From: Urmitella timonensis
Lineage (GTDB): Bacteria > Actinomycetota > Actinomycetes > Actinomycetales > Actinomycetaceae
DNA: 64,000 bases
Direction: 5' to 3'
Assembly (NCBI GenBank): GCA_900120415.1
Contig: FQLW01000006.1
Coordinates: 124,001 to 188,000 of the forward strand
The translations under genes were made by a program, and so were the position numbers. This document shows positions 3,225 to 38,585 of the stretch, in pieces; position 1 is the stretch's first letter, and each line of letters starts with the position of its first letter. The notes beneath the pieces are model-generated. The model was not told the DNA's origin, ran no database searches, and saw nothing but the letters and a program-made list of their open reading frames with translations.

Positions 3225-3288
3225 CCAAGCCTGCTTTCTGGTCTGTTCTCGGGTCTGGCTCGGTAAAAGCGCTCCGGGGACCCCGATT

Positions 3289-3306
3289 TTCTCGCTTCAG
3301 CGAGAA
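3289..3306. terminator. Hairpin downstream of hypD, possible terminator
   Basis: TTCTCGCT and AGCGAGAA form a perfect 8-bp stem with a 2-nt gap, 64 bp after the hypD stop. There is no T run after it, so an intrinsic terminator is only possible. Confidence 0.3.
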
Positions 3307-3335
3307 TAGGAAGTTATACCAGGAGGCTAAAAAGC

Positions 3336-3506
3336 GTGTTTCCGACTAAAAAAGATAGTGACAGCATACCTGTCCCTCTCGCATCTTTTACCGGCCGCGA
3401 CCCTTTTGCTCGCAAACTCTTCCTTGCACAATTTGTCTTCTACCTCCCCAAAGCAAAAAACACGCCTATGCCTCCGACGTTACAAATGAGCCAAACGTGC
3501 GGGTAA
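3336..3506 (+). CDS. Possible small ORF with strong ribosome site, no known family
   Basis: A GTG-initiated frame of 56 codons is preceded by AGGAGG at 3321-3326, 9 nt upstream. The product would begin MFPTKKDSDS and is not recognised. Part of the frame overlaps a ~33-bp repeat that recurs near 4101 without a matching frame, which argues against a gene. It is listed because the Shine-Dalgarno sequence is good. Confidence 0.13.
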   Translation: MFPTKKDSDSIPVPLASFTGRDPFARKLFLAQFVFYLPKAKNTPMPPTLQMSQTCG

Positions 3507-3699
3507 TAGTTATTCCGCCTACCAATAAACAATTCTGATAATTAACCGCGTATCCGAAAGCCAATAATATGATGTCAAGTGGGTGAAGCCTGCTCGGATA
3601 AAACTATCCCCCGCATGCAAGGCTCGCAGCTACTTACCACTGTCTGTTCCTCGAAAACTCCAATTTCCCGGCCTGTCGCGATTCAAGATCCTTAAACGA

Positions 3700-3803
3700 G
3701 GGGGCGAGGTTTTATCCGAGTGGGCGCGGTGGGCATAAGAATTCGGAAAACGTCGCCACGTTTTTCGAATTCTTGGGCGGGAGGAAAAACCTCGCCCCCG
3801 CGC
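3700..3803. repeat. Nested palindromic element, copy A
   Basis: The outer arms are GGGGGCGAGGTTTT (3700-3713) and its perfect complement (3786-3799). The inner arms are AAGAATTCGGAAAACGT (3737-3753) and ACGTTTTTCGAATTCTT (3758-3774), 17 bp with one G-T wobble and a 4-nt loop CGCC. Two asymmetric spacers sit between the arms: one starts ATCCGAGTGGGCG, the other is TGGGCGGGAGGA. Copy B is the same element inverted. Confidence 0.85.
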
Positions 3804-3909
3804 ACGATTTTGGGCAGGAGGAAAAAAGTTTTCCGCGCTCAGCCACTAGGCTGTTTCTTCGTTGCGAGAAAAGCAATACAACTAATTCATTCTGCATGTT
3901 GGCGGGGTT

Positions 3910-4006
3910 TTGTCTGTGGAGGGTGAAAACGTTACTTAGGTGGTTCTACTTGCCTGCACATATGCCTGAAAAATGTCGATGCGGGGCAAGATTTTCCTCG
4001 CGCCCC
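3910..4006. repeat. 97-bp direct repeat, copy 1
   Basis: This matches 4231-4327 at a constant offset of 321 bp with no gap. Shared blocks include TTGTCTGTGGAGGGTGAAAA and TGCCTGCACATATGCCTG. Copy 1 ends in the first few bases of a palindromic element (GCGGGGCAAGATTTTCC) that is not completed, whereas copy 2 runs into the full copy B. Copy 1 may therefore mark a truncated element. Confidence 0.75.
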
Positions 4007-4230
4007 GAAATCCGTAAAAATACTCTGGCATCTTCACGGGTTTAACACCCGAAGCCTTCCCCTCGACATAAAACCGCTCCCCGTTCTCCCTAAGTAGTCT
4101 GTCCCTCTCATATCTTTTACCGGTCGCACCCAATTTCGAGACATTATCGCCCTCCCGATACAGTTTCACCCTCCCGAGATGGGAAACGTGGTCGCTTTGG
4201 GGGTGGTTTGGCGATATTGGGAGGGTGTTT

Positions 4231-4327
4231 TTGTCTGTGGAGGGTGAAAACGTTGCTTATATAGTTCTTGCTGCCTGCACATATGCCTGGAAATTGTCGG
4301 TGCGGGGCGAGGTTTTTCCTCTCGCCC
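4231..4327. repeat. 97-bp direct repeat, copy 2
   Basis: Partner of 3910-4006. Its right end overlaps the outer arm of palindrome copy B, so the repeated unit includes part of the palindromic element. Confidence 0.75.
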
Positions 4328-4405
4328 AAGAATTCGGAAAACGTGGCGACATTTTCCGAATTCTTATGCCCACCGCACCCACTCGGATAAAATCTCGCCC
4401 CCGCG
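4302..4405. repeat. Nested palindromic element, copy B (inverted relative to A)
   Basis: The outer arms GGGGCGAGGTTTT (4304-4316) and AAAATCTCGCCCC (4389-4401) pair with one wobble. The inner arms at 4328-4344 and 4349-4365 (AAGAATTCGGAAAACGT / ACATTTTCCGAATTCTT) have one mismatch and the loop GGCG. Spacers match those of copy A on the other strand. Confidence 0.85.
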
Positions 4406-4482
4406 TTAGACACACCGTTCCACCGTCACTAGAAAAGCAATACAACTAATCTCATACGGTTTGGCAAAAGCGTTTCAATGAA

Positions 4483-4650
4483 CGCGGAAAAGTTTTTATC
4501 CGAGCAGGCTAGACACCCTTGTCATCATATTTTTCGACCTTCGGATACCCGGTTATAAATCAGAATTGTTTGTCGGGCTTTATGTCCATTATTTGTATTT
4601 GTCACAGGCAAATACGGATTTTGGGCAGGAGGAAAAAGTTTTCCGCGCTC
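4483..4650. repeat. Diverged member of the palindromic element family
   Basis: The left end CGCGGAAAAGTTTTT is followed by ATCCGAGCAGGCT. The right end is TTGGGCAGGAGG followed by AAAAAGTTTTCCGCG. The end modules are those of the family, with arms of a different sequence that still match each other except at one base. The central part (about 4511-4616) shows no long stem. A detached right end of the same type lies at 3808-3838. Confidence 0.5.
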
Positions 4651-10255: not shown

Positions 10256-10323
10256 CCTGCAAAACGATTGCTAGAACCCCTGCAAAACGATTGCTAGAAC
10301 CCCTGCAAAACGATTGCTAGAGC
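10256..10323. repeat. Iteron array 1: three 23-bp tandem repeats
   Basis: CCTGCAAAACGATTGCTAG recurs with a 23-bp period starting at 10256, 10279 and 10302. The copies are essentially identical. Read on the minus strand the unit is TAGCAATCGTTTTGCAGG plus a 5-nt linker, which shares TAGC-N5-TTTTGCAG and the 23-bp period with arrays 2 and 3. It lies 24 bp past the stop of the DUF4143 ATPase gene. Confidence 0.9.
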
Positions 10324-10347
10324 ATTATAAATGCACTTCAGCAAGTT

Positions 10348-26150: not shown

Positions 26151-26274
26151 GCCCGTGCTACCTCTCATCCGGACTATAACCGTCGGTACCGGAATTTCAC
26201 CGGTTCAGCCGCCCATATAGGCGGGTCGCGGACTTTACCGCCGGTTCGGATTTTCACCGACCCCGGAGCACCCG
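26151..26274 (-). ncRNA. FMN riboswitch (RFN element)
   Basis: Read on the minus strand it has the RFN signature: GGGGTCGGTGAAAATCC, AACCGGCGGTAAAGTCCGCG, a variable hairpin (CCCGCCTATATGGGCGG), CCGGTGAAATTCCGGTACCG, ACGGTTATAGTCCGGATG and AGAGGTAGCAC, closed by a GTGCT/AGCAC stem. It lies about 70 nt ahead of ribD and controls the whole ribD-ribE-ribBA-ribH operon: FMN binding should favour the hairpin at 26086-26116 and switch expression off. Confidence 0.95.
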
Positions 26275-37104: not shown

Positions 37105-37174
37105 CAGCAGACTTATTTGCGGTAAAGGTAAAAGTCCCCCGCGAAGGCGAGTTTATGCGCGGGAAGGAACATAT

Positions 37175-37282
37175 GCGCGGAGAAGAGATTTTTCCTCCCG
37201 CCCAAGAATTTGGAAAACGTAGCGACGTTTTCCAAATTCTTATGCCCACCGCACCCACTCGGATAAAATCTCTCCCCCGCGC
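37175..37282. repeat. Nested palindromic element, copy C
   Basis: Same orientation as copy B. The inner arms AAGAATTTGGAAAACGT (37204-37220) and ACGTTTTCCAAATTCTT (37225-37241) match perfectly with loop AGCG. Relative to copies A and B, a C-to-T change in one arm is matched by G-to-A in the other, so pairing is kept. The outer arms carry GAGATTTT/AAAATCTC (37185-37192, 37265-37272). Confidence 0.85.
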
Positions 37283-37474
37283 GCTTCCAGTAAGCGTTCT
37301 CGCAGCCTCAATGCCCGCAGACTTACAGATTTCATCATCTGAATACTGAATGTCCTAAAACGACAGTAGAGATGCAGAGTCTGTCTAGTCGAAGTCAAGC
37401 TCCTCCCAGGAGTAAAGAATGACGCCGGTCGACTTGAGGGGAATCTGACTAAAAATCCTAAATTCGCATACCAG

Positions 37475-37580
37475 GTGCGGGGGCGGATTTATGCCGAGCA
37501 GGTTAGGCGGGCGTAAAACTCGTAAAAGACCAGGGTCTTTTACGAGTTTTTGGGCAGGAGGCGAAATCCGCCCCCGCGCC
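37475..37580. repeat. Nested palindromic element, copy D (same layout, different stems)
   Basis: The outer arms GCGGGGGCGGATTT (37477-37490) and AAATCCGCCCCCGC (37564-37577) are perfect, 14 bp. The inner arms AAAACTCGTAAAAGACC (37515-37531) and its complement (37534-37550) are perfect, 17 bp. Spacers ATGCCGAGCAGG and TGGGCAGGAGG match those of the other copies, but the inner stem sequence is unrelated to theirs. Confidence 0.85.
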
Positions 37581-37738
37581 TAACCACGTACCCAATTCCG
37601 CGGGCTTGGGCGGGAGGAAAAATCTCTTCCCCGCGTATCCCCGGAAATTCCGGGAGTTAAGGTAGCACTCCGTTCAGTTTTCAAACGGTGACCCGAACAT
37701 AAAAAGTAATAACCCTTAGGAGGGCATCAGCCAAAGTA

Positions 37739-37832: not shown

Positions 37833-38585
37833 TTACGCTTTGTGACGGCGCCAGGCAACTACACCAGTACCGCCGGCAACGGAGGCTACTGCTAGTCCAG
37901 CTAGAGAAGCAGCAACCGCACCGGTGCTAGCCAGGTTTCCTTTGCTCTGCTTAGCCGGTTTAGCGACTGGCTTATTTGCAGATTTCTTGGTGTCGGCGAC
38001 AGCAACCGCAGTCCCTTTTTCGGATTTACCGGGCTTTACCTGAGGTTTCGCGGGTTTCTCTGCCGGTTTGGAGGGGGTAGCTTTGCAGCCGTGAGCCTTG
38101 TTATAGGCGGCAGGATCAGCGTCCTGAATCTTCTTTAGAGCCGGATAGACATAGTTTTTAACAGTGCCTTCCTGAATATCAGAGTATCCTTTCGCTTCCT
38201 TGTATTTCGCAGTGGCACTCTTCAAAGTGGCAGCTGCTTTAGTTAAATCGGCGTTAGCATCATCGAGAGCTTTCTTCTTAGTAGCATCTCCTTCGGGAGC
38301 AGCTTGGGTCTTGCTCTCGTCGAAAGCTTTCTTAGCGGCAGCAACCTTAGCTTTAGCGGCTTTTACATCAGCTTCGGCTTTTTTCATAGCATCATCAGCC
38401 TGGTTGGTTGTCAGCTGCAGTTCAGTGAGCTTACCGTTTTCATTGGCATAGTGAATCTCTGCCTGTTCGAGAGCATCTACCCAGCAAGCGGGGGTTGTGT
38501 CAGCTGCGAAGGCAGCCGGGGCGAACCCGAAAGTCAGACCGGCTACGAAAACGCCAGCTGCAGTTTTTTTGACAAGATTTTTCAT
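37833..38585 (-). CDS. Sortase-anchored helical surface protein (LAxTG)
   Basis: This 250-aa secreted wall protein has a signal peptide at residues 1-27 (MKNLVKKTAAGVFVAGLTFG, then APAAFA-A), an all-helical, Lys/Ala-rich coiled-coil region (about 36-165) bracketed by two cysteines (C34, C167) that could form a disulfide, and a Pro/Lys-rich wall-spanning linker. The C-terminal sorting signal is LASTG (218-222), a hydrophobic stretch and RRHKA. No known adhesin family is recognised. The ATG has AGGAG 7 nt upstream. The promoter has a perfect TTGACA followed by a run of nine G, which suggests phase-variable expression. Confidence 0.88.
   Translation of the reverse strand: MKNLVKKTAAGVFVAGLTFGFAPAAFAADTTPACWVDALEQAEIHYANENGKLTELQLTTNQADDAMKKAEADVKAAKAKVAAAKKAFDESKTQAAPEGDATKKKALDDANADLTKAAATLKSATAKYKEAKGYSDIQEGTVKNYVYPALKKIQDADPAAYNKAHGCKATPSKPAEKPAKPQVKPGKSEKGTAVAVADTKKSANKPVAKPAKQSKGNLASTGAVAASLAGLAVASVAGGTGVVAWRRHKA

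Follow-up and report, generated by a model that had tools for sequence, protein, structure and literature searches.

Families of palindromic repeats are usually known by one stem sequence; the family described here, found in Varibaculum, keeps its fold while its stems diverge. Variable but paired stems are also a property of integron attC sites, which are recognized specifically as single strands and often lie by stop codons. Among interspersed repeats, the REP, REPIN and BIME elements are described as occurring in many intergenic copies, mostly downstream of genes and between unidirectional or convergent genes, with inverted neighbours and in mosaics, all of which are traits shared with the Varibaculum repeats (PMC3733652, PMC3116915, PMC2817692). 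The ERIC/IRU and Correia/NEMIS families are described in PMC2229807 as small repeats (107-155 bp) that fold as RNA, again like the Varibaculum element, and orientation-dependent effects on mRNA are reported there for ERIC. In this study we analyzed nested palindromes in a 64-kb window (the whole stretch of DNA under analysis) of a Varibaculum genome, and followed them through six genomes of the genus, a small sampling of species that includes two V. cambriense and V. vaginae.

Architecture of the element and its copies in the window

The element is about 110 nt long (about 111 model positions) and consists of two nested helices, P1 and P2, joined by an asymmetric, G-rich and conserved internal loop. 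P1 comprises 14 bp plus about 3-4 outer pairs, followed by a bulged A and 3 pairs (UCC/GGA); the 14-bp outer stem reported in an earlier, sequence-only reading of this DNA is therefore present but is not the full length, the stem being longer by these further pairs. P2 has 16-17 bp and is usually closed by a 4-nt loop, as that reading had it. The 5' loop is 23 nt long (ATCCGAGYRGGYGCGGTGGGCAT) and the 3' loop 11 nt (GGGCRGGAGGA). We refer to the conserved strand of the element as the sense strand, which reads + in copy A and - in copies B and C.

The three copies A, B and C on which the sequence-only reading was built are real (family D5; repeat pair I1 with 94% complementarity across 104 nt, and I2 with 89% across 108 nt) and share one layout. 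Copy A (type I, 3697-3804, + strand; covariance model match 3695-3805, 128 bits) has an outer stem pairing 3697-3713 with 3786-3802 and, across the bulged A, 3715-3717 with 3783-3785. Its 5' loop (3714-3736, ATCCGAGTGGGCGCGGTGGGCAT), in which TCC is also paired, is followed by the inner stem (3737-3753 with 3758-3774, 4-nt loop CGCC) and the 3' loop (3775-3785, GGGCGGGAGGA). Copy B (type I, 4301-4408, - strand; match 4298-4407, 112 bits) is inverted with respect to A, and the two lie between the convergent genes hypD and miaA. Copy C (type I, 37174-37281, - strand; match 37173-37283, 128 bits) and copy D (type II, 37476-37582, + strand; match 37473-37582, 99 bits) lie between a Macro-domain gene and a minus-strand gene (37833-38585), which are also convergent. 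Copy D has the architecture of A-C but differs from them in the inner stem (AAAACTCGTAAAAGAC ... GTCTTTTACGAGTTTT) and the 5' loop. RNA folding z-scores of copies A-D, taken on both strands, range from -4.1 to -9.2.

The window also holds less regular relatives. A long-type copy (4478-4650, + strand, delimited by eye) has the kind of outer stem and the 3' loop of the main family and an extended 5' loop (GCTAGACA...TTCGGATACC...GGTTATAAATCAGAA); it has relatives at L226:1908-2076 and L020:1714-1883, and in all three the 5' loop contains about 60-80 extra conserved nt (TTCGGATACC...GGTTATAAATC). The long-type elements may represent the element in an older or more complete form. An inverted and decayed long-type copy (3496-3612, - strand, ends set by eye; inverted repeats I3 and I4) matches 4531-4576 with its arm 3522-3567 and 4494-4534 with its arm 3563-3603. 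Orphan 3' halves are found on the + strand at 3807-3842 (TTTTGGGCAGGAGGAAAAAAGTTTTCCGCGCTC; family D3; pattern match C5:127811) and at 37605-37638 (complementary to 37173-37206, inverted repeat I5; pattern match C5:161607), and a partly decayed type III-like copy (GATTTTCCTCGCGCCCCGAAATCCG ... CCCCTCGACATAAAACCGC; compare L212:2121 and L226:2119) was delimited by eye at 3977-4085 on the - strand.

Other repeats and a riboswitch were noted along the way. A second, unrelated family of nested palindromes, beta, with an outer stem GGTAAAAG...CTTTTACC and a GTGACC-type inner hairpin, often adjoins or harbours members of the first. Its ends lie in the window at 3251-3285 and 3379-3405 (span 3251-3405, about 90 bp apart, strand unassigned), where positions 1-34 and 62-88 of the beta query match C5:127251-127285 and 127379-127405; other copies are at L138:2095-2190 and L178:3592-3672, and beta is confined to Varibaculum (6/59 genomes). 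At L143:1378-3409 (G000:C5:1215.4-1217.4 kb), 19-nt GGAGGGTGAAAATGTCACC repeats, direct and inverted, are densely arrayed, with larger periods of 71, 126, 145 and 216 nt, and related units occur at window positions 3908-3995 and 4229-4316. A 23-nt repeat (CCTGCAAAACGATTGCTAGAACC) stands three times in tandem at 10256-10324, and an FMN riboswitch (Rfam match) lies on the minus strand at 26153-26273.

Copy number, distribution and turnover

A covariance model (R1) built from 31 copies gave 65 matches in the genome of the window, some of which are the opposite strand of the same copy. For the count of unique copies we combined 63 sources (33 from this genome, 30 from G004) with 46 from other genomes of the genus, and the resulting 223 matches reduced to 184 unique copies: 54 in the genome of the window, 62 in G001, 46 in G004 and 22 in G002, G003 and G005 together. 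The family thus numbers at least about 50 copies in its own genome and is found in 6/6 Varibaculum genomes searched; the covariance search that the sequence-only reading had proposed as its check recovered dozens of further covarying copies. After setting aside 23 of the 184 copies that could not be anchored and 11 of the remaining 161 with too short a parsed outer stem, 150 well-parsed copies were left, among which the 5' arm has 127 distinct sequences in P1 and 75 in P2; despite this diversity, the outer arms show a shared GCGCGGGG tendency. Copy A was mis-parsed and is absent from the pair counts made on parsed copies (mismatch contexts, T-runs, counterparts).

By blastn, 6/59 relatives were positive, all of them Varibaculum. 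The covariance model was positive in 3/61 genomes of the family (all Varibaculum, 1/36 genera) and in 1/248 genomes of the order (that of the window, 1/86 genera), and the element was found in none of the other genera covered, although the stricter filters of these large searches could miss very distant forms. At gathering score the element had no Rfam match, only weak chance matches (E 2.7 and 4). Spread via a phage, plasmid or virus was rejected, since neither plasmids nor phages (112-nt query, distant mode) nor viral_contigs (one exact pattern only) gave a match. Among the papers listed by literature searches on palindromes, repeats or intergenic regions of Varibaculum, and on nested intergenic inverted repeats and Actinomyces, none dealt with these repeats, judging by titles or the start of abstracts. 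A new, RAYT-less, non-autonomous interspersed hairpin family, with its G-rich strand as the probable working form, is the best reading overall.

A copy like A stands between hypD and miaA in four other genomes of the genus (L212, L011, L019, L177), and the same site in V. vaginae (L040) has half-copies only. Depending on the identity demanded of P1, counterparts elsewhere were found for 8/41 (0.8) or 13/41 (0.5) copies of the window's genome, which is a lower bound because counterparts could be found only at the loci covered. This suggests that many copies have been gained or lost since the species split. Parts of the element are also exchanged: the 5' loop and P2 have been swapped between types I and II with P1 retained (L178:3683 versus L207:8450; L184 versus L222), and identical P1 blocks occur with both types. 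Moreover, copies are nested in one another and in beta. In L136, the inner hairpin of a beta element is split by a type II copy, whereas beta is uninterrupted at the syntenic site in L198; in L215, a type III copy splits beta likewise (L081 is without the copy); and in L231 a copy lies inside the remnants of a type I element, of which L023 has the intact form. Together with beta, these nested copies make the intergenic regions of Varibaculum mosaics of several palindromic families. A junction search with 183 copies gave 43 junction-spanning matches, and among the matches listed (the best 40 of 43), those that were read held no target duplication at a precise empty site. Two further comparisons may be recorded. 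Between L093:1501-1612 and L228:1929-2039, one half is identical between species and the other strongly diverged, as if an arm had been overwritten; and at L133 (about 1590-1625) the genome of the window has a short hairpin where G004 has a full element (L189:1987-2096), which looks like an internal deletion that left part of the outer stem.

Covariation and strand bias of the stems

Covariation was assessed on 41 of the 54 copies in the genome of the window (E at most 5e-13), against 500 shuffles and slid registers; the alignment was fitted to the model and leans towards the structure, and both helices are nearly ungapped. Of 1493 cells, 94.4% are paired (76.8% in shuffles); 34 of 37 base pairs are changed on both sides (20.4), doubly changed cells number 270 (77.6) and further pair types 83 (62.3). 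On all five measures none of the 500 shuffles reached the observed value, and the true register exceeded all slides. The stems have diverged into well over a hundred distinct versions while the fold was kept. The change from C-G to T-A between copies B and C, from which selection for pairing had originally been argued, is real. It is a recurrent subfamily variant, with CG in 22 and UA in 15 of the 41 copies and no U.G intermediate, and taken alone it could stem from a single event that copying then spread. Pairing is proved instead by the 33 other pairs with changes on both sides.

A second line of evidence comes from mismatches. If both arms were simply mutating, G.T and A.C mismatches would be expected to be equally common. 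On the sense strand of 161 copies, the ratio of G.T to A.C was 130:45 in P1 and 52:21 in P2; with each sequence context counted once it was 134:53 (2.5-fold, p 3e-9), whereas random pairing at the given arm composition would give 1.09:1. The sense RNA fold was also more stable than the antisense fold in 138/150 copies, but the G-rich loops add to this stability and we therefore base the strand argument on the mismatch counts instead. The excess is seen in convergent (68:25), tandem sense (21:2), tandem antisense (34:18) and divergent (20:5) gene arrangements, and is absent from copies at locus edges (5:7). Replication strand was rejected as the cause: in G004, with the terminus assumed opposite dnaA, the sense strand is leading in 24 copies and lagging in 22, and the bias is present in both orientations (28:8 and 24:11). 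Read-through was rejected as well, the difference being not significant (86:26 where the sense strand is read, 51:22 where only the antisense strand is; Fisher p 0.31).

Positional counterparts in other genomes behave similarly. One pair of the hypD-miaA copy, G-C in the window, appears as G.U in L212, L011 and L019 and as A-U in L177. Single changes went to G.U in 25 cases and to A.C in 13 for P1 (41 counterpart pairs), and to G.U in 8 and to A.C in 1 for P2 (23 counterpart pairs), or 33 versus 14 overall (p 0.008). Since the G.T excess is unattainable by arm-to-arm copying alone, we infer that the sense strand is under selection for pairing, as RNA or as ssDNA. The selection for pairing claimed at the outset is thus supported by the double changes and by this bias.

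Genomic position, explanations and comparison with known systems

Using a simple ORF caller and keeping orthologous copies in the counts, we classified the gene context of 178 copies (6/184 could not be classified): the flanking genes are convergent for 87 of them, tandem for 76 and divergent for 15. The statement that all copies lie between convergent genes thus holds in the window and fails for the family overall. We consider it somewhat better than an even bet (about 0.55) that these are Varibaculum-specific, non-autonomous interspersed elements of about 110 nt whose folded sense strand is the working form and which lie mainly downstream of genes, as REPs likewise do (PMC3733652). The observed part of this explanation is the copy number, genus limit, covariation, strand bias, positions that differ between species, module exchange and nesting. 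The working strand would be GCGCGGGG..TTTT-A-TCC-GAG..GGGC/P2/GGGCRGGAGGA..CCCCGCGC, folding as RNA or, during spread, as ssDNA. A putative enzyme or host factor would recognize the loops on the two-stem scaffold; the loops are the likely recognized part because they are conserved while the stems vary freely, and such recognition would leave the stem sequence free to drift. Pairing would be kept during this drift via G.U intermediates plus gene conversion or template switching, and copies would settle mainly downstream of genes, where they would do least harm. A folded target of a nuclease or transposase, as was first suggested, is a possible role. No mobilizing enzyme was identified when IS200/RAYT-type proteins (PF01797) were sought in the 6 genomes of the genus. 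A retro-element with a resident reverse transcriptase was rejected: 3/6 genomes of the genus carry PF00078, and that of the window has none. As an alternative to mobility, the elements could have spread by recombination or duplication of larger mosaic blocks.

The elements may instead be cis-acting RNAs at transcript ends, the folded sense RNA stopping, stabilizing or processing read-through and the copies being kept for the host. The paired strand is indeed the sense strand, copies are scarce in divergent promoter regions, and the G.U compensation at the hypD-miaA site took place with the copy in position. Copies also mostly adjoin the stop codon of an opposed gene: for 77/99 copies (G000, G004) the neighbour on the sense-3' side is oriented towards the element, and in 41/77 its stop codon is no more than 94 nt away. 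Against this, a U-tract is absent, few copies of the window's genome are conserved in position, and between tandem genes the sense strand is opposed to both genes in 52 copies and runs along them in 24, so that most of these would not be reached by read-through from the upstream gene. We regard a role at transcript ends as possible, if unlikely. About as unlikely, and offered tentatively, is that the family represents a folded RNA or ssDNA of a new class, mobile or regulatory and particular to Varibaculum, with hypervariable stems as a scaffold, a recognized G-rich loop (possibly a G-quadruplex or a protein site), an outer stem that stays, an exchangeable inner cassette, and a mode of spread that depends on neither RAYT nor RT and can put one copy into the hairpin tip of another.

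Compensatory changes can also be imagined as DNA-level upkeep only, in which template switching between the arms, a process that PMC8794818 proposes to create and maintain RNA hairpins, makes the covariation a product of mutation and not of selection. Double changes do far outnumber one-sided ones in the 41 copies (270 cells versus 28/1493), and it is because one-sided changes are so few that template switching may well contribute, as helper or main cause. In the P2 counterparts, 11 double changes stand against 12 single-sided ones; doubles without an intermediate are above the two-step prediction, which points to sequence being copied from arm to arm or from one copy of the element to another. 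Arm copying is strand-blind, yet the G.T excess appears whatever the gene context and in either replication orientation, and copying between arms alone leaves the conserved unpaired loops unexplained. As the whole explanation, it seems doubtful.

REP or REPIN elements mobilized by a RAYT (TnpA-REP), an idea akin to the REP/BIME-like elements suggested in the sequence-only reading, fit the abundance, the intergenic placement, the inverted neighbours and the mosaics with other repeats. The transposase for which that reading recommended a search tells otherwise: Y1_Tnp was found in 0/6 genomes of the genus and in 5/14 named genomes serving as positive controls, which largely refutes the idea, and an element of about 110 nt with two helices differs from REPs of 20-40 bp as described in PMC3733652. 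Mobilization by a RAYT is accordingly most improbable. Canonical intrinsic (bidirectional) terminators, suggested by hairpins of which many lie between convergent genes, are refuted to a similar degree by missing U-tracts (runs of at least 4 T in the following 12 nt are seen for 9/150 copies on the sense side and 3/150 on the antisense) and by window scans in which the terminator-like sites of these intergenic regions fall outside A-D.

The Varibaculum repeats provide a natural test of whether compensatory changes arise through two-step selection via G.U or one-step template switching, and of how small palindromic repeats spread in RAYT-less genomes. As with REP and REPIN elements, there are many intergenic palindromes, and A/B and C/D form pairs in opposite orientation. 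Unlike REP, REPIN and BIME, the element has two nested helices over about 110 nt, a conserved internal loop and variable, compensated stems, and an unpaired GTAG or CGTC tag, which REP/REPIN palindromes carry at one of their ends, was not seen by eye at the ends of the listed copies. PMC2229807 tabulates ERIC/IRU and Correia/NEMIS with inverted repeats at their ends, duplications of the target and terminal TA; in the Varibaculum element the terminal arms are not conserved in sequence, 150 copies having 127 different P1 5' arms, and a TA duplication was not seen. The same diversity of arms sets it apart from MITEs, with their conserved terminal inverted repeats. The core-site motifs of attC sites are not evident at the ends of the element, and its copies adjoin syntenic chromosomal genes, with no cassette array seen. 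By their general description in PMC2267715, the 92 stem-loop sequence (SLS) families of bacterial genomes resemble it in being repeats defined by a common secondary structure and mostly intergenic. Taken together, the family probably behaves as a REP- or ERIC-type interspersed hairpin repeat, yet one that falls outside REP/REPIN by the enzyme that defines them.
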